The notes under the pieces are model-generated. The model saw only the letters and a list, made by a program, of their open reading frames with translations, was not told where the DNA came from and did not search any database. A DNA stretch of 64,000 bases from Shinella zoogloeoides. GTDB taxonomy: Bacteria > Pseudomonadota > Alphaproteobacteria > Rhizobiales > Rhizobiaceae. Numbering within the stretch: the stretch's first letter is position 1; each line of letters starts with the position of its first letter. The stretch spans positions 124,001 to 188,000 of the forward strand of contig NZ_QNUJ01000010.1 of assembly GCF_003574625.1 (NCBI RefSeq). The letters run 5' to 3'. Made by a program: the position numbers and the translations under genes. Shown here piece after piece: positions 2,156 to 13,728 of this stretch.

Positions 2156-2317
2156 GAAGCGCCACGCTTAACCTTCTGTTCGTCTAGTCTCGCAACAGGC
2201 GTTTAGGAGTCTCCCGCTAAGGTGCCGGCATGTTGCGGTGCTTCTCGGCGCCGCGTTTCGTGCGCTGGCAGCTCCATCATGGGCCGCCAACGGTCTCCTG
2301 AAAGGAGCGCGTTCGGA

Positions 2318-3598
2318 ATGGATGCGAAAACCATATTCACGATGGCGTCGATCATGGTGCTGGCCAACGGGGCCATCCTGACCGCCATGGGACGCGAACT
2401 GCCCGCCGGCCTCAGGCCCGCGGCGCGGCAGTGGTGTCTCGGCACGCTGCTGGTGGCATTCGGATGCATCGTCTTCGCGCTCGGCGGTCCGTTGCCGCGG
2501 CCCCTGATGCTGACGGCTGCCAATGCGGGCTTCGCCTTCGGGCTGACGGCCTATTGCGTGGCGATCCGCCGGTTCCTGCGGTTGCCGGTCGGCGCGTGGC
2601 TGTTCCTACCGGCGCTGGCGGCCTCGCTGGTCGTCGCGTGGTTCTCGGCGGTCATGCCGAACTTCCATGTCCGCATGGCGGTGGTTTCCGTCGTCTGGGT
2701 CGGGCTGATGGCGATGTGCGTCAGGGATCTCATGAACAGGGGCCGGGGCGAGGCCTCGCTCGCCCGTTCCATCCTCACCGCCATGTTCGCCGGCGTCGGC
2801 CTCTATGCGGCGGCGCGCTGCATGCTCTACCTCGTCGCCGACGTTTCCGAGGGCTTTGCCGTGGAAAGCGGCGGCAACTGGCTGAACGTGCTGTCGGCCC
2901 TGCTGATGACCACGCTGCCGGTCATGGGCACCACCGCCTTCCTGCTGATGTGCTCGGATCGCCTGCAGCGCGGCCTGGAGCGGGCCGCCGATACCGACTA
3001 CCTGACCGGATTGCCGAACCGGCGCAGCCTCGCCCGCGCCGGCGCCGAGGCGTTTCTTTCGGCGCGGCAGGCCGGCGGCGGCCTCTGCCTCGCGGTGTTC
3101 GACATCGACAAGTTCAAGGCGATCAACGACACCTATGGCCACGATGCCGGCGACCGCGTGCTCGTCCATGTCGCGAACCGGCTGCGCGCCGGGCTGCGCC
3201 CCGCCGACCTGATCGCCCGCACCGGCGGCGAGGAATTCGTCGTCCTCTTCCGCGACCTGGCGGAGGCCGACGGGCTCGCCATCGTCGAGCGGATGCGCGC
3301 GGCGGTGGAGAATGGCGGCTTTTCGGCGGATGGCGAAGGGATCGCCCTGACGGTCTCGGCCGGTCTCGCCGCGCGCGCGACCCGTGACGAGACCTATGAC
3401 GACCTTCTGCGCCGGGCCGATGCGGCGCTCTATCGCGCCAAGGCGAACGGCCGCAACCGGGTCGAGGCGGCGCGGCCGGATGGAACAGCGGATGCCCGCC
3501 GGGTGCGGACCGCTCCGCCGGCCCTCGCCACCGAGGACGCCGCCTCGCTTGCGGTGAACCCGGAGGCCGGGGCCGCTCCGGTTCAGATCTCCAGATAG
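2318..3598 (+). CDS. Membrane-bound diguanylate cyclase (GGDEF)
   Basis: This 426-residue protein has about seven N-terminal membrane segments (residues 5-212) of no recognised sensor family. A C-terminal GGDEF domain follows (about 222-390) and is predicted to make cyclic di-GMP from two GTP. The active-site loop is GGEEF at 303-307, the metal-binding helix has FDIDKFKAINDTYGH at 261-275, and an RxxD inhibitory site (RPAD, 294-297) sits the usual five residues upstream, so product inhibition is likely. The start chosen is the ATG at 2318 with AAAGGAG about ten bases upstream; a GTG at 2222 in the same frame is less convincing. Its last 16 bases overlap the 3' end of the convergent giant repeat gene. 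Confidence 0.85.
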   Translation: MDAKTIFTMASIMVLANGAILTAMGRELPAGLRPAARQWCLGTLLVAFGCIVFALGGPLPRPLMLTAANAGFAFGLTAYCVAIRRFLRLPVGAWLFLPALAASLVVAWFSAVMPNFHVRMAVVSVVWVGLMAMCVRDLMNRGRGEASLARSILTAMFAGVGLYAAARCMLYLVADVSEGFAVESGGNWLNVLSALLMTTLPVMGTTAFLLMCSDRLQRGLERAADTDYLTGLPNRRSLARAGAEAFLSARQAGGGLCLAVFDIDKFKAINDTYGHDAGDRVLVHVANRLRAGLRPADLIARTGGEEFVVLFRDLAEADGLAIVERMRAAVENGGFSADGEGIALTVSAGLAARATRDETYDDLLRRADAALYRAKANGRNRVEAARPDGTADARRVRTAPPALATEDAASLAVNPEAGAAPVQISR

Positions 3599-6500
3599 GA
3601 CGAGATGATCGCCGCGATGTCGGATTGCGGATCGCTCGTCGTGGCGTCCGCCGTCGGCTCCGTGCTTTCCGTGGACGTTCCGCCCGTGCCCGACGTGCCG
3701 CCGGTTGCCGTCGTCGCGGCGGGGCCGCGCGGCAGGGCGGCGACCTGCGCCGGGGTCATGGCGGCAAGCTGGGCGGGCGTGAAGGCATTGGCCTGCTCGC
3801 TGCTGAGGCCGGCGAGCGCCGCCGTGCTGAGGCCGAGCACCGCATTCGTGCCGAGGGCGACGATATGGTCCGGCGAGAAGGTGGCAAGATCGTCCGCGCC
3901 GAGCCCGGCCGTCTGCGTCGCCGTCATCGCGCCCGCCTGCTCGACCGTCAGCGCCGCCACCTGGGCCGTGCTCATGGCGTTCACCTGGCTGTAGGTCAGG
4001 GCCGCGATCTGGCCGGTGCCGAGGGCCGCGATGCTATCCGTCGACAGCCCACCGATCACCGCCGGGGAAAGGCCCTTGATGGCCGAGGGGCTCATCGCCG
4101 CCAGTTCCTCGGTCGAGATGGTCTGCATATGCGCCGGCGTCAGGCCGGCTGTTCCGGGCGAGCTGAGGGCGGCGATCTGCGCCATCGAGAAGGCTTCGAG
4201 CTGCTCGGGCGAGAGCGCGGCGACCTGGGCGCTGCTGAGACCGGAGATCGCGCCGGTGCCGAGTGCGGCGATCTCGGCATCCGAAAGCGTCGCAAGATAG
4301 CTCGGCGGCAGGCCCTTGATGGCGCTGGAGCCGATGGCGGCGAGCTTGCTCGTCGAGAAGGTGTCGAGCGCCTCGCTCGAAAGCCCGCCGAGCGCGGCGG
4401 CCGTAAGGGCTGCGACCTGGCTGGCCGAGAGGGATTCGGCCTGCTCGAAGGTAAGGCTCGCGGCCTGCATGCCGGTGAGGCCGGCAATGCCGCTCGGGCT
4501 GAGGGCGGCGATCTGGCCCGGCGTCAGCGCCGCGATGTCCGCGACGGCGAGGGCGCCGACCTGCTTGGAGGTGAGCGCGTTGATCTGCGCGGTAGAGAGC
4601 GCGGCGATCTGGTTCGGGCTGAGGGCGCTGATCTGGCCCGTCGTCATGCCGCCGATGCCGGCGGGGCTCAGCGCCTCGATCTGCTCCGGCGAGAAGCCGG
4701 CGAGGATGGAGGCGGAAAGGCCGGCCATGGCCGCCGAGCCGATCGCCCCGATTTCCGCGGTGGTGAAGAGGGCGATGTCGGCGGCGTCGAAGGCGGCGAT
4801 CTGGCGTGAGGTGAAGGCGCCGATCTGCGTCGCCGTCAGCGCCTCGACCTGATCGGCGCTGAGCGCAGCGATCTGCTCGCTCGTCATGCCGGAAATGCCG
4901 GCCGTGCCGAGGGCGGCGATCTGCGCCGTCGTCAGCGAGGCGATCATGCCGGTCGAAAGGCCGAGAATACCCCGCGAGCTGATGGCCGCCATGTCCGCGG
5001 ACGAGAACTGCGCGAGGTCGTCGGCGCTGAAGGCCGCGATCTGCTGCGAGCTGAGGGCGCCGACCTGCGTGTTGGTGAGCGCTTCGGCCTGCGCCGTGCT
5101 GAGGGCTGCGATCTGCGCCGTCGAGAGGGCCGCGACGCCGGCCGTGCTGAGCGCGGCGATCTGTTCGGGCGAGAGGGTGGCGATATTGGCCGTGGTCAGG
5201 GCAGCCACCTGCGTCGAGCCCATCGCCGCCATCTGCAGGCTCGTCAGCGCCTCGAACTGGCTCTCGCTGAAGGTGCCGATCTGCGCGCCGGTGAGGCCCG
5301 CCGCGTTCAGCGCGGCGACCTGGGCGGGGGTAAGCGCGGCGATCGCCGCCGTCGGCAGGCCCGCCACCGCGCGCGAGGTGATCGCGCCGATCTCGGCGGG
5401 CGTGAAGGTCTCGAGATTCGTGGGGCTGAAGGCGCCGATCTGCGCCGAGCTCAGCGCGGCGATCTGCGTTGCCGTCAGCGCCTCGGCCTGCAGCGGCGAG
5501 AGGATGCCGATCTGCGCCGAGGTCAGGCCGGCGATGCCGTCGGCATTGAGCGCGGCGATCTGGGCCGGCGTCAGCGCCGCGATGCCGTCAGCGCGCAGCG
5601 CCGCGACCTGCCGGGAGCCGAGCGCGCCGAGCTGCGCCGTGGTCATGGCCTCGATCTGCGTGCCGGAAAGCGCCGCGACCTGGTCGCTCGAAAGCCCGGA
5701 AAGGCCGGCGGCGCTTAGCGCCGCGATCTGGCCGGTCGACAGCGAGGCGAGCATGGCGGTCGAAAGGCCCGCGATCGCGCCCGAGCCGATGGCCGCGATG
5801 TCCGCGGAGGAGAAGGTGTCGAGCTTGGCCATGTCCAGCGCGGCGATCTGGCGCGAGGAGAAGGCGGCGATCTGCGCCGGCGTCAGCGCCTCGGCCTGCG
5901 CGGTGGAGAAGGCGGCGATCTGCTCGGGCGTCAGGCCGGCGATGGCCGCCGCGCTGAGGGCGGCGATCTGCGCCGTCGAGAGCGTCGCGATATAGGCCGG
6001 GCCGAGATTGGCGATCTGCCGCGCATTGAGCGCGCGGACCTGATCGGCCGAAAGCGCATCGAGCTGGTCGCTGGAAAGGGCGGCGATCTGCTTCGTCCCG
6101 AGCCCGCCGATGGCGGCGGTGCTGAGCGCCGCGACCTGCCCCGTCGAGAGGGCGGCGATCACCTCGGTCGAAAGGCCGCCGATGGCATCCGAGCCGATGG
6201 CGGCGATCTCGCGCGTCGAGAAGGTCGCGATGCCGTCGGATGTGAAGGCGGCGAGCTGCGTGGAGCTGAGCGCGCCGATCTGGCTCGTCGTCAGGGCTTC
6301 TGCCTGCGCGAGGCTGAGGGCGGCGATCTGCTTGGTGGTGAGGCCGGCGATGCCGGTGGAGCTGAGGGCGGCGATCTGGGCGGTCGAGAGGGCGGCGAGC
6401 GCCTCCGTCGAAAGGCCCGGCAGGGCGCCGGACGAGATGGCGGCCATTTCCTGGGTGGAGAAGGTCGCGATGTCCTCGGGGCTGAGGGCGGCGATCTGCG

Positions 6501-9500
6501 TCGAGCTCAATGCCGCGATCTGCGTGCGGGTCAGCGCCTCGGCCTGCTCGGTCGTGAGGGCGGCGAGCTGCTGGGTGGTCATCGCGCCCATGGCGGCCGC
6601 GCTGAAGGCGGCGATCTGGGCGGTGGAGAGCGAGGCGAGCGTCGCCGCCGAAATGCCCTTGATGGCGCTGGCGGTGATCATCGATATGTCCTTCGTGGAG
6701 AAGGTCGCGATCTCCGCCGTGCCGAATTCGCCGATCTGGTCGGGATTCAGCGCGCCGACCTGGGCGCTGGTCAGCGCCTCGGCCTGGCTGGTGCTGAGCA
6801 CGGCAAGCTGCTGCGAGGTGAAGCCGGCGATGCTGCCGGCATTGAGGGCCGCGATCTGCCCGGTCGTGAGGGCGGCGATCTGCGCCGTGCCGAAGGCGGA
6901 AATCTGCGAGGAGGTCAGCGCGGCCATCTGCCGTGTGCCGAGCGCGCCGATCTGCGACAGGCTGAGCGCGGCGATCTGGCTCGAGGTGAGGCCGGAAACG
7001 CCGGAGGCGCTGAGGGCGGCGAGCTGGGCGTTCGACAGGGCGTCGAGGTCTGACGGATTGAGCGCTGCGACCTGGCTGGACGACAGGGCCGCGACCTGCG
7101 CGGTGGTCAGTGCGGCGATCTGGTCGGAGCCCAGCGCGCTTATCTGGCCGGAGCGCAGCCCGGAAACGGCCGCCGGGGTGAGGCCGGCGAGCTGTTCGGG
7201 GGTGAGCGCCTTCACATCCGTGTCGAGCGCGCCGGCCTGGGCGGCGGTCAGCGCCTTGAGATGGGCGGCGGAAAGCTGGCTGACCTGCAGCGGGCTCAGC
7301 GCTTCGATCTGGTCGCTCGTCAGGCCGGTGAAGGCGCTGGTGCTGAGGGCGGCGATCTGCGCCGAGGTCAGCGAGGCGAAGGTGTCCGGGGCGATGCCGG
7401 AGACCGCGCCGCGGCTGAGGGCGGCGATCTGGGCGGTCGAGAGCGCGCGGATGTCCTGCGGTTCGAGCGCGCCGATCTGGGCGGAGGTGAAGCCGCCGAT
7501 CTGCGCCGTCGAGAAGGCCGCGATCTGCTCGCTTGTCAGCGCCTCCATCTGCGAGGCGGTCAGGCCGGAGAGGGTCGTGCGGCTGAGGGCTGCGATCTGC
7601 GCGGTGGTGAGCCCGGCGATGGCCGCAGGGCTGAGGCCCGCGATGGCCTTGCTGGAGATCGCCGCGAGGTCTTCCGTCGAGAAGGTGGCGAGATCCGCTC
7701 CGCTGAGGGCGGAAAGCTGCGCGGAGGTCAGCGACTTGACCTGCTGCGAGGAAAGCGCCTCGATCTGCGCCGTGCTCAGCATCTCGATCTGGTCGGCCGA
7801 AAGGCCGCCGATCGCGCCCGTGCCGATGGCGGTGATCTGCCCGGTCGCAAGGGCCCTCAGGAAGGCTTCGCCGAGGCTGGCGATCTGCGCCGCCGTCAGG
7901 CCGCCGATCTGGCCGCTCGTGAGCGCGGCGATCTGGGCGGTCGAGAGTTCGGCAAGCGCTGCGCTGCCAAGGCCGTTGATGGACTTGGTGTTGATCGCCG
8001 CCATGTCCTCGGTGGAGAAGGTCGCGATGCCCTCCGCGCCGAGCGCCGTGATCTGCTTGGCGTTCATTCCGCGAATCTGGTCGGGCGTGAGCGCCTCGAC
8101 CTGGCCGGTGCTCAGCGCCGCGATCTGCAGGGTGGAAAGGCGCGCGACGACGCTCGGGCTGAGCGCGGCGACCTGCTCGGGCGACAGGGCGGCGATGGCC
8201 GAGGTCGGCAGGCCGGCAATGGCCTTGCTGTTGATCGCCGCGATCTGGGCGGGCGTCATGTCGGCCAGCACGGCCGGGTCGATGGCCGCGATCTGCGCGG
8301 CGTTCAGCGCCCCCATCTGCGAGGGAGAAAGCGCCGCGATCTGCTCCGTCTTCATCGCGCTGATCTGCGCCGTGGAAAGACCGGTGAGCGCAAGGGTGCC
8401 AAAGGCGCCGATCTGCTCGAGCGAAAGGGCGGCAAGGACGCTGCTGCCGATGCCGGAAACCGCCCTGTTGCTGAGAGCCGCGATATCGGCCGTCGAGAAG
8501 GTCGAGAGCGCATCGACGCTCAGCACGGCAAGCTGCGCGGCGGTCAGCGCCTTCACCTGCGTCGGGGTGAGGGCTTCGATCTGGCCGTTGTCGAGGGCGG
8601 CGATCTGCGTCGTCTTGAGCGCACCGATCTGGGCGGAGGTCAGCGCCGCGATCTGGCCGGTGGTGAGGGCGGCGAGCGCATCCGGGCCGAGGCCGATGAG
8701 CGCGTTGTTGCGGATCGCGGCGATGTCGCTGCTGGAGAAGGTCGAGAGCGTCTCCGGCCTGAAGGCGGCGATCTGGGCCGCGGTCATCACCTTGATCTGG
8801 GCGGGCGTGAAGGCTTCGACCTGGCTTTCGTCCAGCGCGGCGATCTGCGCCGGGGTAAGGGCGGCGACCGCCTTCGTGCTGAGCGCGGCGATCTGCGCCG
8901 GCGTCATGCCCGAAATGGTATCCGGGCTGAGACCGGCGACCGCGGCCGGCGAGAGGGCCGCGATGTCGGCTGTCGAGAAGGTGGCGATGCCGGCCTTGTC
9001 GAGGGCGGCGGCCTGGATGGCGGTGAAGCCCTTCATCTGCGTCGGGGTGAAGGCCTCGACCTGCGCCTCGCTCATGGCGCCGATCTGCGTGGCCGTAAGG
9101 CCCCGCACCGCCGCGCTGCCGAAGGCGGCGACCTGGCGGGTGGAGAGCGCCGCGATGCTGTCGGTCGTGAAGGCGGAGACCTGCAGGGCGGTGAGCGCCG
9201 CGATCTGCGCGGTGGAGAGCGCGCCGACCTGCTCGGTGCTGAGGGCGGCGATGGCCGCCGTGCTGAGCCCGGACAGCGATTTCGCCGAAATCGCGGCAAG
9301 GCTGTCGGTCGACATGCGCGCGAGGTCGTCGGCGCTGAAGGCGGCGATCTGCGCGGCGCCCATGGCGGCGAGTTGCCTGGATGTGAGCGCGGCGGTCTGG
9401 TCGGGCGTGAAGGCGGCGACCTGCGCGACCGAAAGGCTCTGGATGGCCTGAACGCTCAACGCGGCGACCTGCTCTTCGGAAAGCGCCGCGATGGCGTCGG

Positions 9501-10368
9501 TGCTGAGTCCCGAAAGGGCCTTGGCCGCGATGGCGGCGATGTCCTCGGCCGAGAAGGTGGCAAGGCCGTCGGCGGAGATGGCGCCGAGCTGCTGGGCCGA
9601 CAGCGCCTTGACCTGCGCGGGCGTCAGGGCCTCGACCTGCCCTTCGGAGAGCGCGCCGATCTGTGCGGTGGAGAAGCCGGTGATGGCGCTGCTGCTCAGC
9701 GCGGCGATCTGTTCGGCCGAGAACGCCTTGACCGCCTCCGCGCTCAGCGCCGCGATCTGCGCGGGCTTGAGCAGCGCGATCTGCGCCGTCGTCATCGCGG
9801 CGATCTGGTCGGGCGTGAGCGCTCCGGTCTGGTCCGTCGTAAGGCCGGCGACGGCGAGCGGCGCGAGCGCGGCGACCTGTCCGCTGGAAAGCGCCGCCAG
9901 CGCCGCGGGGCTGAGGCCCTGCACCGCCTTGTAGCTGATCGCCGCCATGTCCTCGGTCGAGAAGGTCGCAAGGTCCTCCGGGGCGAGGGCCGCAAGCTGC
10001 GCGGTGCCCAGCGCCTGGACTTGCGACGGCGTCAGGGCCTCGGCCTGGTCGGCCGAAAGCGCGCCGACCTGCGATGCGGTCAGCACCGCGACCTGGCCCG
10101 TCGTCAGGTTCTCGATGGAGGAATGGGTGAGTGCGCCGATCTGGTCGAGCGACAGGCCGATGATGGCGCCCTGCGAGATGGCGCTGATCTGGCCGTCGCT
10201 GAGAATGCCGATATCCTCGAGTTCCAGCGCCGCGATCTGCTTGGAGGAGAAGGCGCCGATCTGGCTCGTGGACAGCGAGGCCACGTCCTCGGTCGACCAT
10301 TGCTGGATCGTCTCTGTCGAAAGCTGCCGGATCTGGCTGAGGCTGAGCGAGGAAACGATCGACGTCAT
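3583..10368 (-). CDS. Giant octapeptide-repeat protein, 2261 residues
   Basis: I do not recognise a characterised homologue. After seven N-terminal residues the protein is 276 contiguous units (residues 8-2211). Of these, 274 are exactly eight residues long; one is seven (LDTDVKA) and one is five (LNAAG). The consensus is L/F-S/T-x-x-Q-I/V-A-A/G. A marker pair of the type FSxxDIAA-IxxKAIxG recurs mostly every ten units. I see no signal peptide, no cysteine, one tryptophan (unit 3) and no membrane segment. A roughly 35-residue Thr/Gly/Ser-rich tail and a short C-terminus (SDIAAIISSYLEI) follow, which could be a type I secretion signal, but that is inference. S/T-x-x-Q could be a helix-capping box, so an all-helical solenoid is as plausible as a beta solenoid. 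The start at 10368 has AGGA seven bases upstream. It lies 164 bp downstream of the sigma/anti-sigma operon on the same strand. Confidence 0.85.
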   Translation of the reverse strand: MTSIVSSLSLSQIRQLSTETIQQWSTEDVASLSTSQIGAFSSKQIAALELEDIGILSDGQISAISQGAIIGLSLDQIGALTHSSIENLTTGQVAVLTASQVGALSADQAEALTPSQVQALGTAQLAALAPEDLATFSTEDMAAISYKAVQGLSPAALAALSSGQVAALAPLAVAGLTTDQTGALTPDQIAAMTTAQIALLKPAQIAALSAEAVKAFSAEQIAALSSSAITGFSTAQIGALSEGQVEALTPAQVKALSAQQLGAISADGLATFSAEDIAAIAAKALSGLSTDAIAALSEEQVAALSVQAIQSLSVAQVAAFTPDQTAALTSRQLAAMGAAQIAAFSADDLARMSTDSLAAISAKSLSGLSTAAIAALSTEQVGALSTAQIAALTALQVSAFTTDSIAALSTRQVAAFGSAAVRGLTATQIGAMSEAQVEAFTPTQMKGFTAIQAAALDKAGIATFSTADIAALSPAAVAGLSPDTISGMTPAQIAALSTKAVAALTPAQIAALDESQVEAFTPAQIKVMTAAQIAAFRPETLSTFSSSDIAAIRNNALIGLGPDALAALTTGQIAALTSAQIGALKTTQIAALDNGQIEALTPTQVKALTAAQLAVLSVDALSTFSTADIAALSNRAVSGIGSSVLAALSLEQIGAFGTLALTGLSTAQISAMKTEQIAALSPSQMGALNAAQIAAIDPAVLADMTPAQIAAINSKAIAGLPTSAIAALSPEQVAALSPSVVARLSTLQIAALSTGQVEALTPDQIRGMNAKQITALGAEGIATFSTEDMAAINTKSINGLGSAALAELSTAQIAALTSGQIGGLTAAQIASLGEAFLRALATGQITAIGTGAIGGLSADQIEMLSTAQIEALSSQQVKSLTSAQLSALSGADLATFSTEDLAAISSKAIAGLSPAAIAGLTTAQIAALSRTTLSGLTASQMEALTSEQIAAFSTAQIGGFTSAQIGALEPQDIRALSTAQIAALSRGAVSGIAPDTFASLTSAQIAALSTSAFTGLTSDQIEALSPLQVSQLSAAHLKALTAAQAGALDTDVKALTPEQLAGLTPAAVSGLRSGQISALGSDQIAALTTAQVAALSSSQVAALNPSDLDALSNAQLAALSASGVSGLTSSQIAALSLSQIGALGTRQMAALTSSQISAFGTAQIAALTTGQIAALNAGSIAGFTSQQLAVLSTSQAEALTSAQVGALNPDQIGEFGTAEIATFSTKDISMITASAIKGISAATLASLSTAQIAAFSAAAMGAMTTQQLAALTTEQAEALTRTQIAALSSTQIAALSPEDIATFSTQEMAAISSGALPGLSTEALAALSTAQIAALSSTGIAGLTTKQIAALSLAQAEALTTSQIGALSSTQLAAFTSDGIATFSTREIAAIGSDAIGGLSTEVIAALSTGQVAALSTAAIGGLGTKQIAALSSDQLDALSADQVRALNARQIANLGPAYIATLSTAQIAALSAAAIAGLTPEQIAAFSTAQAEALTPAQIAAFSSRQIAALDMAKLDTFSSADIAAIGSGAIAGLSTAMLASLSTGQIAALSAAGLSGLSSDQVAALSGTQIEAMTTAQLGALGSRQVAALRADGIAALTPAQIAALNADGIAGLTSAQIGILSPLQAEALTATQIAALSSAQIGAFSPTNLETFTPAEIGAITSRAVAGLPTAAIAALTPAQVAALNAAGLTGAQIGTFSESQFEALTSLQMAAMGSTQVAALTTANIATLSPEQIAALSTAGVAALSTAQIAALSTAQAEALTNTQVGALSSQQIAAFSADDLAQFSSADMAAISSRGILGLSTGMIASLTTAQIAALGTAGISGMTSEQIAALSADQVEALTATQIGAFTSRQIAAFDAADIALFTTAEIGAIGSAAMAGLSASILAGFSPEQIEALSPAGIGGMTTGQISALSPNQIAALSTAQINALTSKQVGALAVADIAALTPGQIAALSPSGIAGLTGMQAASLTFEQAESLSASQVAALTAAALGGLSSEALDTFSTSKLAAIGSSAIKGLPPSYLATLSDAEIAALGTGAISGLSSAQVAALSPEQLEAFSMAQIAALSSPGTAGLTPAHMQTISTEELAAMSPSAIKGLSPAVIGGLSTDSIAALGTGQIAALTYSQVNAMSTAQVAALTVEQAGAMTATQTAGLGADDLATFSPDHIVALGTNAVLGLSTAALAGLSSEQANAFTPAQLAAMTPAQVAALPRGPAATTATGGTSGTGGTSTESTEPTADATTSDPQSDIAAIISSYLEI
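3736..10347 (-). repeat. Tandem 24-bp coding repeat with a 240-bp super-period
   Basis: The DNA behind residues 8-2211 of the giant protein is a degenerate tandem repeat of 24 bp. A higher-order period of 240 bp shows directly: the GAGAAGGT marker begins at 6218, 6458 and 6698, exactly 240 bp apart, and recurs near 8498, 8738 and 8978. Two short units shift the phase. Because the repeat is GC-rich and stop-poor, very long open frames exist on both strands across this stretch; I treat these as shadows. Confidence 0.9.
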
Positions 10369-10532: not shown

Positions 10533-11312
10533 TCAGGTGGGGAACTGGCGGTAGCATTCCTCCGCGATCTGCTGCAGGACATCGCGGGAAATGTCGCCTG
10601 TCACGGCATAGCCGAGGTCCCCGTCGATCCAGTAGAAGGTCTCGATGCCGCTGGCGGAGGCGAAGCGGAAGCTCGTCGTGCGGTTGTCCCCGTTGCGCCC
10701 GACGAGGACGGTCACGCGCCGCCCGGCCTCGTTCTCATACATGAACATGGCGCCCGGCCTGTCGGCGACGGGAAGGAGGCGGCCGCCGACCAGCCGGAAG
10801 CCGATGGATTGCAGGCTCGGCACCTTGAGGTCCGGTATGGCGAGCCGCTTGCCGAGCCATGCGGCGAGATGCGTCTCCTCGTCGGCGAAGACTTCCACGG
10901 GATGGCGTACCTCGCTCGCATAGATGAGATAGGCGTTGCGCGCCTCCTGCGGCAGCGCGTCCATCGCCGCGACTTGCTGCGGCGGCGCTTCGAAAAGGGG
11001 CGGCACGAAATGGCCGGCAAGCCCGCCGAGCACGAAAAGGCCGGCGGCGGCGGCCGCCATGGCGAAGCGGCGGGAGCCTGCCCCTGCCGCCGCCGGCGAC
11101 GAGACGAGACGGGTATCGGACGGGCGGGAAACGGCATGGCCGGCAAAGGCGTCGCGCAGGCTCTCGTTCTGCGCCTGCCAGTCGGCGACGAGCCGGGCGG
11201 CTTCCGGGTCCTCCGCCAGATGATCCTCGACGTGCCGGCGCTCCGCCTCGTCGAGCAGCCCGTCGACATAGGCGTGCAGATCGGGTTCGCCGATGGGTTG
11301 GCGCTCGCTCAT
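10533..11312 (-). CDS. Anti-sigma factor, single-pass membrane protein
   Basis: This 259-residue protein is predicted to hold the neighbouring ECF sigma factor inactive at the inner membrane. The N-terminal cytoplasmic domain (about 1-55) has the ASD-like pattern DLHAYVDGLLDEAERRHVEDHLAEDP but lacks the HxxxCxxC zinc-binding residues of ZAS-type anti-sigma factors. A membrane helix lies at about residues 81-103 (FAMAAAAAGLFVLGGLAGHF), followed by a periplasmic domain of about 155 residues. Its ATG overlaps the sigma gene's stop by four bases (ATGA), which indicates translational coupling. The pair probably responds to an envelope or redox signal, but the trigger cannot be read from sequence. 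Confidence 0.82.
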   Translation of the reverse strand: MSERQPIGEPDLHAYVDGLLDEAERRHVEDHLAEDPEAARLVADWQAQNESLRDAFAGHAVSRPSDTRLVSSPAAAGAGSRRFAMAAAAAGLFVLGGLAGHFVPPLFEAPPQQVAAMDALPQEARNAYLIYASEVRHPVEVFADEETHLAAWLGKRLAIPDLKVPSLQSIGFRLVGGRLLPVADRPGAMFMYENEAGRRVTVLVGRNGDNRTTSFRFASASGIETFYWIDGDLGYAVTGDISRDVLQQIAEECYRQFPT

Positions 11313-11875
11313 CGTGGGCTCCGCAAATGAATGACGTTTTCCTCCTGCAGCCTTTGCCGCAGCATCTGCCGGGCGCGCGAAAGGCGCGACATGACGGTAC
11401 CGACAGGAATTTCCAGGATTCCGGCGACCTCCTGGTAGGAATGGCCTTCGACGGCGACGAGCATCAGCACCGCCCGCGCCTCCTTCGGCAGGATCTCCAG
11501 CGCCTGCACCAGCCGGTTGCGTTCCAGCGGATCGGAAGGCGCGGCGTTCTCGGCCACGGCCTCGGCTTCCTCGATGCCGACGGAAGGCCGCCGCGCGACG
11601 GCCCGCTGCGCGTTGAGATGCAGGTTGGTCATGATCCGGTAGGCCCAGGCGCGAATGTTCGCGCCGCGCCATTGCGCGCGGTGGACGAGCGCCTTCTCCA
11701 CGCAGTCCTGCAAGAGGTCCTCGCTCTCCGCGTCGGAGCGCGTCAGGCTGCGCGAATAGCGCCGCAACTGCGGCAGGAGGGCGAGGATCTGCGCCTCGAA
11801 GGCAGGGGGCGGGGAGGCGTCGCCTTCCCGCCCGCCGCCGTCGGTCATGGCGTGGGGATCACGGCCTTGCGACAT
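11309..11875 (-). CDS. ECF-family RNA polymerase sigma factor
   Basis: This is a 188-residue sigma-70 family factor with only regions 2 and 4, typical of ECF sigmas. Region 2 reads LRRYSRSLTRSDAESEDLLQDCVEKALV followed by WAYRIMTNLHLN. Region 4 contains the helix-turn-helix LVAVEGHSYQEVAGILEIPVGTVMSRLSRAR near residues 138-168. Two in-frame ATGs are possible, 11875 (used here, overlapping the upstream gene by 17 bases) and 11848 (179 residues, no overlap); neither has a good ribosome binding site. It is co-transcribed with the anti-sigma factor and probably with the secreted COG4315-type gene upstream. Its own promoter is likely among its targets. Confidence 0.88.
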   Translation of the reverse strand: MSQGRDPHAMTDGGGREGDASPPPAFEAQILALLPQLRRYSRSLTRSDAESEDLLQDCVEKALVHRAQWRGANIRAWAYRIMTNLHLNAQRAVARRPSVGIEEAEAVAENAAPSDPLERNRLVQALEILPKEARAVLMLVAVEGHSYQEVAGILEIPVGTVMSRLSRARQMLRQRLQEENVIHLRSPR

Positions 11876-12233
11876 TCCAGACGCCGTTCATGCCGTCGCC
11901 GGTCGCATCGCCTTCCTTGGTGTCCTTGGCCCAGTAGTAAAGCGGCATGCCGTCCTTCGCCCATTGCTTCGACCCGTCCTTGCGGGTGACGAGCGAATAT
12001 GCGCCTTCCGCCTTGGCGTTGGAAGCGGCCTTGGCCGGCGGCCAGTTGGCGGCGCATTTGTCGTAGCAGGCGGACTTGCCGTGCTTGTCCTTCTTGAAGG
12101 TGTAGAGGGTCATGCCCTTTTCGCCGGCAAGCACCTCGCCCTTGTCGGTCTTCACGGTCTTGAACGGCTCTGCCGCAAAGGCGGTGCCGGCAAGGAGGGC
12201 GGCAGCCAGCGGGACGAGAACAAAGAGCTTCAT
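11859..12233 (-). CDS. Secreted COG4315/PF03640-type repeat protein
   Basis: This 124-residue exported protein has a clean signal peptide (MKLFVLVPLAAALLAGTAFA). Two copies of the PF03640 'secreted repeat' follow: GMTLYTFKKDKHGKSACYDKCAANWPP, and later GMPLYYWAKDTKEGDATGDGMNGVW. The cysteine pair C..C in the first repeat suggests a disulfide in the periplasm. The biochemical role of this family is not known. The start is the ATG at 12233, with GGAG six bases upstream; another ATG four codons earlier lacks a site. It is the first gene of a likely operon with the ECF sigma and anti-sigma genes, so it is probably both a marker and a target of that system. Confidence 0.8.
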   Translation of the reverse strand: MKLFVLVPLAAALLAGTAFAAEPFKTVKTDKGEVLAGEKGMTLYTFKKDKHGKSACYDKCAANWPPAKAASNAKAEGAYSLVTRKDGSKQWAKDGMPLYYWAKDTKEGDATGDGMNGVWNVARP

Positions 12234-12270
12234 GGTCTTCTCCATCGTTATGACGCGCTTCCGGAGCCGT

Positions 12271-12305
12271 CCATGCCAAGACACCGGACCGCGCCGGTTT
12301 ATTCC
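12271..12305 (-). promoter_or_regulatory. Candidate ECF-type promoter
   Basis: On the minus strand, GGAATAAACC (12305-12296) is followed after about 15 bp by GTCTTGG. A GGAAT-type -35 with a short GTC-like -10 is the general form of ECF sigma promoters. It lies about 40-70 bp upstream of the secreted-repeat gene and would fit autoregulation of the operon. This is inferred from one site only. Confidence 0.4.
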
Positions 12306-12342
12306 GTCCCGCGATGGAAAAATGTGAGGACCCGCCGCCGGC

Positions 12343-13728
12343 TCAATGCCCGGTGATGCCGTCGGCGATGGCCGCGAGCTTCGACGTGTGCTGGAGGCCC
12401 GCAAATTCCCGCGCATCCGCCATGCGGTAGAGCTGGTACATGGAATGGACGCCGAGCCAGCGAAAGGGCTCCGGCTCCCATGGGCGCACCGTGCGGTTGA
12501 CCCAGGGAAGGCCGGTTAGTTCCGTTTCGCGCCGGAGCACGAGGTCGGCCAGGGTCCGCCCCGCGAGGTTGGAGGAGGAGACGCCGAGGCCGACATAGCC
12601 GCCGGCCCAGCCGATGCCGGTTTCCCGGTCGAAGCCCGCCGTCGTGCACCAGTCGCGCGGCACGCCGAGCACGCCGCACCAGGCATGCTCGATCTTGAGG
12701 GATTTCGTCTGCGGCAGGAGGCGGGTGAGGATGGCATGGAGGGCGTCGATGGTCGCCTGCTGCGTCCGGCCGTCGATATCGGTCCTCGATCCGAAGCGGT
12801 AGGGAACGCCGCGCCCGCCCATGGTGATGCGGCCCTCGCGGGTGCGCTGGGCATAGCAATAGGCATGCGCCGCATCGCCGAGCAGTTCATGGCCTTCCCA
12901 GCCGATCTCCCGCCACAGCGCTTCGGGCAGCGGCTCGGTGACGATCTGCGCGCTGTTGAGCGGCAGCCATGTGCGCTCATGGCCCGGCAGGCCGGCGGTG
13001 AAACCCTCCGTGGCGCGGATGACGACCGGCGCGCGGACGGTGCCGCGCTCCGTCTCGACGCGGCCCTTCGTGAAGCCGGTGACGGCGGTGCCCTCGAAGA
13101 TGCGGACGCCGAGGCTTTCGACGACCTTCGCAAGCCCGCGCACCAGCTTGGCCGGTTGGACGCGCGCCATGTCGCGGATGACGAAGGCGCCCTCGACGCC
13201 GGCGATGCGGATGCGCCGCGCCGCTTCCTCCGCCGACAGCATCTCCATGCGGTCGGCCGGCATCTCCCAGTCGAGATAGAACTGGTATTCCTCGCGGGCG
13301 CGCTCCAGTTGCGGCCTGTTGGTGGCGACGGTGATGTTGTCGACGCGCAGGATATCGGCATCGATGCCCTCGGCCTCGGCGACGCGGATCACCTCGTCCA
13401 CCGTGCCCGCCATGGCGCGCTGCATGTCGACCACCGCGCCGCGCGTCGCGGTCTTGAGATACTTTTCCCGCGACCAGCCGAAGCCGCCGGAAAGCCAGCC
13501 GCCGTTCCGCCCCGAGCCGCCGAAACCGGCAAATTCGCGCTCGACCACGACGATGTCGAGCGAGGGATCGGCCTTCTTCAGGTAATAGGCGGTCCACAGG
13601 CCCGTATAGCCGGCGCCGATGATGCAGACATCGGCCTCACGGTCTCCGGGAAGGGCGGGACGCTTTTGCGGCACGCCGCCGATATCGGCGTACCAGAAGG
13701 AGATGTTGCCGTTCGTCGTCACGTCCAT
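12343..13728 (-). CDS. FAD-dependent amine/amino-acid oxidoreductase (DAO family)
   Basis: This 461-residue flavoprotein is related to gamma-glutamylputrescine oxidase and other DadA-like oxidases. The FAD-binding Rossmann motif is VCIIGAGYTGLWTAYYL near residues 37-53. It is followed by the family signature FGGSGRNGGWLSGGFGW, and the C-terminal FAD motif is GWAGGYVGLGVSSSNLAGRTLADL. An N-terminal segment with SFWYADIGG is common in this group. The start is the ATG at 13728. A likely transporter gene lies upstream on the same strand, but a strong terminator separates the two, so they are probably separate transcripts. The substrate is unknown; an amine, or a proline- or betaine-like compound, is an inference from the neighbour. 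Confidence 0.8.
   Translation of the reverse strand: MDVTTNGNISFWYADIGGVPQKRPALPGDREADVCIIGAGYTGLWTAYYLKKADPSLDIVVVEREFAGFGGSGRNGGWLSGGFGWSREKYLKTATRGAVVDMQRAMAGTVDEVIRVAEAEGIDADILRVDNITVATNRPQLERAREEYQFYLDWEMPADRMEMLSAEEAARRIRIAGVEGAFVIRDMARVQPAKLVRGLAKVVESLGVRIFEGTAVTGFTKGRVETERGTVRAPVVIRATEGFTAGLPGHERTWLPLNSAQIVTEPLPEALWREIGWEGHELLGDAAHAYCYAQRTREGRITMGGRGVPYRFGSRTDIDGRTQQATIDALHAILTRLLPQTKSLKIEHAWCGVLGVPRDWCTTAGFDRETGIGWAGGYVGLGVSSSNLAGRTLADLVLRRETELTGLPWVNRTVRPWEPEPFRWLGVHSMYQLYRMADAREFAGLQHTSKLAAIADGITGH

Follow-up and report, generated by a model that had tools for sequence, protein, structure and literature searches.

The window analysed here, a stretch of 64,000 nucleotides from the soil bacterium Shinella zoogloeoides, encodes on its minus strand a protein of 2261 residues (3583..10368, including the stop codon) built of octad repeats of the ALTTAQ family. 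The residue choice along such arrays follows one period, and genes of this family are co-inherited with a subfamily of TPR-containing GT41 glycosyltransferases. The product of the window gene is best read, with modest confidence, as an exported, O-glycosylated and rigid alpha-solenoid rod.

The octad array and its family

The ORF begins with an ATG at 10368 and ends with a stop codon at 3583-3585. The reading frame is open further upstream, to 10557, and the ATG at 10368 was kept as the start because homologues within the genus conserve the resulting N-terminus, MTSIVSSLS. The initial annotation had the coordinates and the length right, and the strand, which it left unstated, is minus. A DP parse likewise reproduced its array of 276 octad units in residues 8-2211 (3736..10347, minus strand), with 274 units of exactly eight residues, the consensus L/F - S/T - x - x - Q - I/V - A - A/G, no cysteine and a single tryptophan in the whole protein. 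The only two short units, one of 7 residues after residue 1047 (7207..7227, minus strand) and one of 5 residues after residue 1686 (5296..5310, minus strand), recur at the corresponding places in all 17 congeneric long homologues, where the preceding units start at residues 1035-1043 and 1674-1682, respectively; additional irregular units are found elsewhere in 10 of these 17.

The same octad defines Pfam PF20080 (ALTTAQ repeat), which the protein matches far above the curated cut-off (1137.9 bits vs 26.4), with 88 stretches passing individually in the Pfam scan. It is thus an octad already catalogued, in a little-studied family, and not a new repeat. The claim that no described protein has this regularity does not stand, since, besides PF20080, a chain with the same octad has been solved: PDB chain 9zem, 'HeliScrew4' (phmmer E 1.6e-16, alignment in register). 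This chain of 120 residues, whose name suggests that it was probably engineered, has octads L-S/T-P-E/D-Q/K-I/V/F-A-A/R in the register of the window protein, and about 14 of them vs 276. A characterised family with the same octad had been named as the finding that would overturn the claim; PF20080 and 9zem come close to it, but PF20080 is, as far as found, functionally uncharacterised. In the literature searched, the word ALTTAQ was absent from papers and no paper on HeliScrew was found. The PF20080 entry consists of a name and a sequence model, and nothing in it covers the partner gene, the period of the screw or the constant length described below. Homologues, whose taxon names come mostly from a plasmid search (a scan of named genomes with the short form gave only 2 loci), are labelled in databases 'hypothetical', 'ICE nucleation protein' or 'heme utilization protein'.

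Three other Pfam families, CAAP1, Sigma70_r4_2 and Phage_TAC_7, also score above cut-off on the protein; these were taken as low-complexity artefacts because no single stretch passes alone, and PDB sequence matches to LRR proteins, mesothelin and lanmodulin were treated likewise. The flagellin domains PF00669 and PF00700 were absent in the Pfam scan of the protein.

In all 17 congeneric long forms the array ends at most 5 residues from the end of the window array. Homologues at 59-74% aligned identity are collinear with the window array, and dN/dS among them is 0.32-0.47; judged by these comparisons, the long form is under purifying selection. That the array is a functionless low-complexity expansion, selfish or drifting, as the extreme repetitiveness and the 17-unit steps in which short paralogues vary in length might suggest, is hardly credible against these dN/dS values and the common array end. 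The array is not a chance product, as seen from the 88 independent PF20080 stretches, the collinear homologues with their dN/dS, and a spectral peak above that of unit shuffles (see below). A conserved operon with the upstream ECF sigma and anti-sigma genes was considered and rejected, because both adjoin the gene in only one of 17 other long loci (L053); in L058, L060 and L061 there is only a sigma match of 34-35%, about 5 kb from the long gene.

Predicted fold and screw period

Residues 647-886 (30 octads; 7711..8430, minus strand), folded by AlphaFold2 as a single sequence, gave a mean pLDDT of 83.1 and about one short helix per octad, lying mostly at positions 3-7, immediately behind the S/T of position 2; one helix of 16 residues (model residues 180-195) falls in a less confident part. 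With 16 homologues, block means of pLDDT reached 92-97 over model residues 31-260, and beyond the array a disordered linker followed by a C-terminal helix was modelled. This folding of consecutive units, a check that the initial annotation had suggested, bears out its view of a helical rather than beta structure and of S/T-x-x-Q as an N-cap box. Another possibility that it raised, an ice-interacting solenoid, considered here as an ice-nucleation or ice-binding protein, has only database product names of Cereibacter homologues in its favour; ice-nucleation proteins are beta-solenoids, and the helical models, together with a Pfam scan in which the ice-nucleation repeat model had no match on the protein (E 1), led to rejection of a beta-solenoid or ice protein, which is very improbable here.

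That consecutive short helices stack into an alpha-solenoid is well supported by prediction, the stacking resting on weak solenoid fold matches. The best Foldseek matches are to mesothelin (4.9e-05 and 2.6e-04; TM-scores about 0.3), and weak likeness extends to importin-alpha and designed armadillo proteins. The best VIA-align Z values were 8.1 (6.2 A over 237 residues) and 8.4 (5.7 A over 266 residues), a range in which likeness may mean a common arrangement only. Chain 9zem is not among the best 50 Foldseek matches, from a library (entries to 2026-04-08) that may not contain it. Mesothelin, a human protein, is a right-handed solenoid with a spiral of short helices (PMC10035497), as in the model of the window protein, and probably the architecture alone is common to the two.

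Along the arrays, residue choice follows one period of about 3.4 octads (about 27 residues). Among 95 arrays, each a run of 70 or more contiguous octads, with many close relatives among them, the fundamental lies at 3.3-3.5 octads in 84 when harmonics are scored together and in 62 when the raw strongest peak is taken alone; this set excludes frames below 700 aa and arrays containing N runs (L083). The spectral peak exceeds 20 shuffles in all 95, and that of the window array is 2.91 vs at most 1.73 in all 20 unit shuffles. Another period was obtained with harmonics in the other 11, namely 16.9 (L070, L075, L085), 4.2 (L072), 2.8 (L160, L161), 2.4 (L143_2), 6.9 (L116), 6.8 (L137) and 6.0 (L114, L121) octads; most of these are read as multiples or harmonics of exact repeats, and the 6.0 of L114 and L121 is not accounted for by a multiple of 3.4. 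Azimuthally, an acidic face (D/E4, E7) lies opposite a K4/A5/G8 face.

In the proposed geometry, each octad would form one short helix piece, capped by the S/T at position 2, with Q at position 5 closing the cap, while L1, I6 and A8 would pack inside the solenoid. The sequence period would correspond to the solenoid turn, so that about 3.39 octads (27 residues) would make one screw turn and 276 octads about 81 turns. Alpha-solenoids rise about 1 nm per turn, and the rod would then be about 80 nm long.

The array is followed by a variable linker rich in Gly, Ser, Thr and acidic residues (about residues 2212-2247; 3628..3735, minus strand), identified by alignment and AlphaFold2, predicted to be disordered (pLDDT below 50 over most of its length) and less conserved than the array (mean 0.46 vs 0.75). 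The same methods delimit the C-terminal helix DIAAIISSYLEI (3589..3630, minus strand; pLDDT about 47-66), a candidate export or anchoring tail. Of the 17 aligned C-termini, 15 have ISSYL and the other two, those of L052 and L062, end in SSLTV; ISSYL is also missing from L056, which stands outside that alignment.

Co-inheritance with a TPR-GT41 glycosyltransferase

The TPR-GT41 subfamily, delimited among relatives by at least 49% identity and at least 655 bits, is present in 24/24 ALTTAQ-positive vs 0/37 ALTTAQ-negative relatives, one genus contributing 19 of the 24 positives. Across 297 Rhizobiaceae genomes, for which the ALTTAQ and GT41 scans were taken as the same set from equal numbers and matching handles, it occurs in 30/54 positive vs 0/243 negative genomes. 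The 24 of 54 positive Rhizobiaceae lacking the subfamily at E 1e-130, 15 of which have at least 20 repeat matches, speak against the rod reading.

In this genome, the TPR-GT41 gene (G000:C26:190143-192188; PF13844 exceeds its cut-off, and the TPR models score close to theirs, slightly above or below) lies in the flagellin locus, together with a UDP-galactopyranose mutase gene, on another contig than the window gene. All PF20080 matches of the genome fall in the window gene; the ALTTAQ gene that congeners carry at their flagellar locus is missing, and GT41 and mutase are still there. GT41 was found in the fetched stretch of 13/13 congeneric flagellar-locus genes, 36/67 other ALTTAQ loci (leaving 31 with no GT41 in the stretch) and 0/20 controls, and the mutase in 13/13, 21/67 and 0/20, respectively. 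A congener without ALTTAQ (G005) has no mutase in its fetched flagellin stretch, a GT41 of only 36% and four flagellin matches. For the long forms, the window protein's own kind, GT41, mutase, HlyD and flagellar matches were found in 0/17 fetched stretches, which counts against the rod reading.

The 67 other loci were chosen from the listed best matches, not at random, and include paralogues of the same genome, genes cut by stretch or contig ends and both halves of one G775 gene (L180, L181), counted as two. The GT41 queries were taken from L080, L114, L137, L139, L140 and L141, where a GT41 match is given by construction; except for L137 and L141, their PF13844 identity was also shown or matched in another way. 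Outside the counts stand L130, L131, L133 and L135, each with an array as well as GT41, mutase and flagellar genes; L129, L132 and L134, which have no array; and L113, L136, L179 and L205, where a search match was reported and the pattern found no array. As controls, 20 stretches at arbitrary round-number positions were taken from 13 ALTTAQ-positive genomes.

O- rather than N-linkage would be expected, because the 2261 residues contain only one N-x-S/T sequon. In a post hoc comparison of 57 GT41-linked and 31 unlinked arrays (overall Ser/Thr, Mann-Whitney p 0.049), the Ser/Thr fraction at octad position 3 is 0.72 in linked and 0.53 in unlinked arrays; the window protein, at 0.50, resembles the unlinked ones, another point against the rod reading. 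We infer that this GT41 modifies the window protein, as we do the identity of the sugar. The frequent pairing of these genes with that of a sugar-attaching enzyme suggests a sugar-coated surface rod.

Two known systems offer comparisons. In HMW1A/HMW1C, a large exported adhesin is encoded next to a cytoplasmic GT41, an arrangement like that of many ALTTAQ loci with GT41; HMW1C modifies Asn sequons, whereas the window protein has a single sequon, not many, and differs in its solenoid type. FlmG of Caulobacter, as described in PMC7591256, is a TPR glycosyltransferase that O-glycosylates flagellin, a dedicated exported substrate, in the cytoplasm, and its TPR and glycosyltransferase domains resemble the PF13844 and TPR composition of the GT41 found here. 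In contrast to FlmG as described there, the GT41 subfamily tracks ALTTAQ genes, not flagellin; nevertheless, the same enzyme could modify flagellin in the FlmG manner, which weakens the rod reading.

Proposed export, flagellar links and possible roles

ABC and HlyD genes occur together in the fetched stretch at 7/67 other ALTTAQ loci, 0/13 flagellar-locus genes and 0/20 controls, and type I secretion genes adjoin ALTTAQ members in several other lineages. At the 17 long-form loci, and in all Rhizobiaceae stretches that were examined, no such pair was found; an ABC match lacking HlyD, which was not counted as type I secretion, is present at 4/17 long-form loci, and such matches were seen at L048, L049, L052, L062, L084, L125, L152 and the control L197. 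A dedicated type I exporter in the genus is not supported, since the Cereibacter ABC query matches 60/61 genomes (E at most 1e-60) and does not track ALTTAQ; this, with the missing Rhizobiaceae pair, tells against the rod reading. The missing pair in the long forms is also what an intracellular scaffold would predict, binding a partner along its patterned faces in an ARM/HEAT-like way. The acidic face and the weak fold likeness to importin-alpha, designed armadillo proteins and mesothelin agree with it, but the Z of 8.4 at best may reflect a common arrangement only, and the secretion genes of other lineages, the glycosyltransferase co-inheritance and the disordered linker with its mostly conserved tail make this reading rather improbable.

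A somewhat less doubtful, although still unlikely, alternative is a flagellum-associated protein that leaves by flagellar export and coats, caps or decorates the filament, with GT41 and mutase serving both it and flagellin. In 13/13 congeneric loci counted, the short paralogue has flagellin on one side and GT41 on the other, flagellar genes occur at 6/67 other loci, and flagellins are close by in Pseudorhizobium. The short forms begin with MTSI(V/I)(T/S)(N/S), which resembles the MTSILTN with which the flagellins of these congeneric loci begin. Flagellin is also present in 24/24 ALTTAQ-positive vs 25/37 negative relatives, an association confounded by the one genus that dominates the positives. 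The flagellin-like start was not taken to prove flagellar export, since a similar start, M(T)S-I-hydrophobic, is also seen in members next to type I secretion genes and looks like a family N-cap. Moreover, the 17 long forms have no flagellar gene in the fetched stretch, and a very long folded solenoid would have to unfold for flagellar export.

Under the preferred rod reading, surface Ser/Thr would probably be O-glycosylated in the cytoplasm by the dedicated TPR-GT41, and the glycosylated rod would then leave the cytoplasm for the cell surface or the flagellar region, where the C-terminal linker and helix would hold it. Such an anchored rod could serve in adhesion, spacing or as a coat. The initial guess of a rigid filament or surface protein is plausible in this respect, supported by the GT41 link and the secretion genes of other lineages, while its ice part had nothing but a homologue label behind it.

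A wider and more tentative proposal, which in its entirety is possible but doubtful, is that ALTTAQ genes and GT41, in many cases together with UDP-galactopyranose mutase, make up a 'glyco-screw' system of two parts that has hitherto not been described. Rod length would change in whole-turn quanta in the flagellar-locus form (17 octads being five turns), and the long form would keep close to 276 octads. After O-glycosylation in the cytoplasm, the rods would leave the cell through type I secretion in some lineages and, in Rhizobiaceae, along a flagellum-linked route, and would build a surface or flagellar sheath that is coated with sugar and of set thickness.

PF20080 proteins can reach thousands of residues and are extremely regular, yet homologues carry the database labels given above. 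A single screw period read from sequence would tie sequence to solenoid geometry, checkable against a HeliScrew-type structure, and would account for array block repeats of 7, 10, 17, 24 or 31 octads. With the co-inherited GT41, these proteins also have a definite biochemical partner, through which their function can be tested directly.

The octad array of the window gene

The ALTTAQ reading frame of the window lies on the minus strand, with its ATG at 10368 and its stop at 3583-3585, and encodes a 2261-residue product. Residues 8-2211 parse into 276 units, 274 of them of exactly eight residues, and the two short units have 7 residues (after residue 1047) and 5 residues (after residue 1686). 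The initial annotation had given the same counts, which proved exact on reparse, and its observation of no cysteine and a single tryptophan was confirmed as well. The octad array is real and remarkable, and the gene that encodes it is the sole ALTTAQ gene of its genome, as all 61 PF20080 matches fall within it. The accompanying remark that no described protein was known to have such regularity did not hold. Against the Pfam family PF20080 ('ALTTAQ repeat'; cut-off 26.4 bits), the window protein scores 1137.9 bits, 88 stretches passing alone, and the PDB chain 9zem ('HeliScrew4') is matched with E 1.6e-16 and an aligned octad identical in kind and register. The octad repeat was thus already catalogued and one protein with this octad had been solved; the window protein belongs to this known family, in which one relative by sequence has a solved structure. 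No paper under the name ALTTAQ or HeliScrew was found in the literature searched. Some relatives carry functional names: the ALTTAQ protein of Cereibacter sphaeroides 2.4.1 plasmid pA (L137, 12019-16704) is labelled 'ICE nucleation protein', and 'heme utilization protein' in further strains, names that look unsupported.

A GGDEF diguanylate cyclase gene (window 2222-3598, plus strand) is convergent with the ALTTAQ gene, sharing the final 16 bases with it, and a homologue stops at the corresponding place in three further loci carrying the long form, the window's kind of gene (L049, L051, L057). Upstream of the ALTTAQ gene and on its strand (window 10533-12416, minus) lie a weak zf-HC2 anti-sigma-like gene, an ECF sigma factor gene and a Lipoprotein_15 gene; this set also adjoins the long-form gene in L053, alone among the 17 long loci compared.

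Predicted fold, screw period and array length

Modelled by AF2 as a lone sequence, residues 647-886 gave a mean pLDDT of 83.1, with each octad contributing a helix of roughly five residues; the exception is a 16-residue helix spanning model residues 180-195, where pLDDT is near 65-75. As an octad starts at residue 648, most of these helices would span octad positions 3-7, directly after the S/T at position 2. The structure prediction on consecutive units, proposed earlier as a check, came out helical, in agreement with the initial reading of S/T-x-x-Q as a capping box. The last 312 residues, modelled with 16 homologues, gave block pLDDT values of 92-97 across model residues 31-260, then a linker predicted as disordered (268-295, pLDDT below 50) and a C-terminal helix of lower confidence. 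Fold searches found weak likeness between the window-protein models and known solenoids.

In the long forms, unit-to-unit identity peaks at lags of 10, 54, 44, 27, 17, 34, 37, 20 and 7 octads. The period was examined by Fourier analysis of residue indicators at each octad position, followed by joint scoring of four harmonics. Among the array spectra listed, one peak is found at about 0.295 per octad; others, close to 0.41, 0.115 and 0.18, match its second, third and fourth harmonics once aliasing is taken into account. By the raw strongest peak, 62 of 95 arrays fell within 3.3-3.5 octads, and the four harmonics together placed 84 of 95 in that range, the window array at 3.384; in all 95 the spectral peak was higher than that of any of 20 unit shuffles. 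Members with differing superperiods are mostly concordant (17-octad repeats, 3.40; L067, lag 24, 3.43; L182, lag 31, and L117, 3.44), and the arrays of L114 and L121 fall outside the pattern, with a best value of 6.0. We infer that one solenoid turn takes this many octads (about 27 residues), at 106 degrees per octad; the estimated rod length of about 80 nm takes its rise per turn from general background. Folded on the period phase, the long forms show an acidic face (D/E4, E7) distinct from one bearing K4, A5 and G8.

The genus here denotes the congeners grouped together by the genome search, probably Shinella. Array length is fixed among its long forms: all 17 others end their array at residue 2205-2213 (2210 in the window protein), and both irregular units recur at matching places in 17 of 17, at an aligned identity of 59-74% and a dN/dS of 0.32-0.47. 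The 13 flagellar-locus paralogues have lengths of 1007, 1143 (five), 1279 (two), 1359 (three), 1415 and 1551 residues, and the differences are multiples of 136 residues (17 octads), 1359 excepted.

Distribution and the candidate GT41 partner

PF20080 is present in 24 of 61 relatives, 54 of 297 Rhizobiaceae, 6 of 385 genomes sampled from the class, 28 of 398 sampled from the phylum (16 belonging to one family) and one of 14 controls, Caulobacter vibrioides. Matches occurred in 58 of 72,556 plasmid records, 42 with at least 80% of the query covered at one place. A large hypothetical protein of a Spiroplasma endosymbiont plasmid (L205) was matched by tblastn at 26.6%; an octad-pattern search of L205 found no array, so the match may reflect composition only. 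Plasmid NZ_CP084753.1 (G011:C2), filed under Roseateles sp. XES5, groups with Shinella and may carry a wrong organism name.

Within the genus, a flagellin gene and a TPR-GT41 glycosyltransferase gene flank the short paralogue, and in most loci a UDP-galactopyranose mutase gene (glf) comes next. GT41, mutase and flagellar genes were each found at 13 of 13 such loci; the 67 other ALTTAQ loci had GT41 in 36, mutase in 21, an ABC plus HlyD pair in 7 and flagellar genes in 6, and each of the four was found in 0 of 20 control stretches. Partner loci include those of Cereibacter sphaeroides 2.4.1 plasmid pA (a gene annotated as O-linked acetylglucosamine transferase, together with ABC, HlyD and sulfotransferases), two Pseudomonas plasmids, Pseudoroseomonas, Rhodovastum, Rhizobium daejeonense and Pseudorhizobium flavum (with flagellins and glf), and GT41 is missing from the stretch in counter-examples including Thioclava, Rhizobium sp. 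CB3090, Allorhizobium pseudoryzae and Polaromonas. On the Pseudoroseomonas cervicalis plasmid (L207, 11310-16430), the ALTTAQ gene is spread over several overlapping frames, as though disrupted by frameshifts, and adjoins ABC, HlyD and two GT41 genes; on Rhodovastum plasmid RHOApa (L139, 2540-9650), a partial flagellar export and rod gene set adjoins the ALTTAQ gene and GT41.

The GT41 subfamily of the window's genome (identity of 49% or higher, score of 655 bits or higher) occurs in 24 of 24 ALTTAQ-positive relatives versus 0 of 37 negatives, whose best hit reaches 341 bits; the Fisher value of 1.7e-17 for these 61 relatives ignores kinship, the positives representing 6 genera. Across the Rhizobiaceae, 30 of 54 positives have it, as against 0 of 243 negatives. 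Within the samples, the subfamily is thus never seen without ALTTAQ, yet ALTTAQ exists without it. Flagellin could instead be the enzyme's partner, and three cases within the genus bear on this. The flagellin locus of the window's genome retains GT41 and mutase, with a gap of about 275 bases at the congeners' short ALTTAQ site. G005 is the only one of the genus's 20 genomes in which PF20080 finds no match; it has four flagellin hits and a GT41 at 36%, with no mutase in its fetched flagellin stretch. In G001, G008 and G019, the flagellin/GT41 site is occupied by a divergent ALTTAQ-like protein some 720 residues long (L130, 12112-14271; L131, 7509-9686; L133, 5920-8097), that of G001 matching PF20080 with 176.7 bits. 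The three cases speak for ALTTAQ rather than flagellin as the enzyme's partner; the window's genome also holds a second, distant GT41 (37%), so the enzyme may be shared with flagellin.

A putative glycosylated surface rod

Two observations weigh against a GT41-modified rod in the window's case. Its kind of gene is not beside GT41, the fetched stretches of the 17 long loci of the genus containing no GT41, mutase, ABC plus HlyD pair or flagellar genes (an ABC match alone occurs in 4 of 17), and Ser/Thr at position 3 has a frequency of 0.50 in the window protein versus 0.72 in GT41-linked arrays. N-glycosylation of the HMW1C type is disfavoured, given a single N-x-S/T sequon. What is new here is the screw period, the fixed array length and the GT41 link. 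Most likely, the window protein would form a solenoid rod that is O-glycosylated by GT41, a putative modification, and that, after putative export, would be held at the cell surface.
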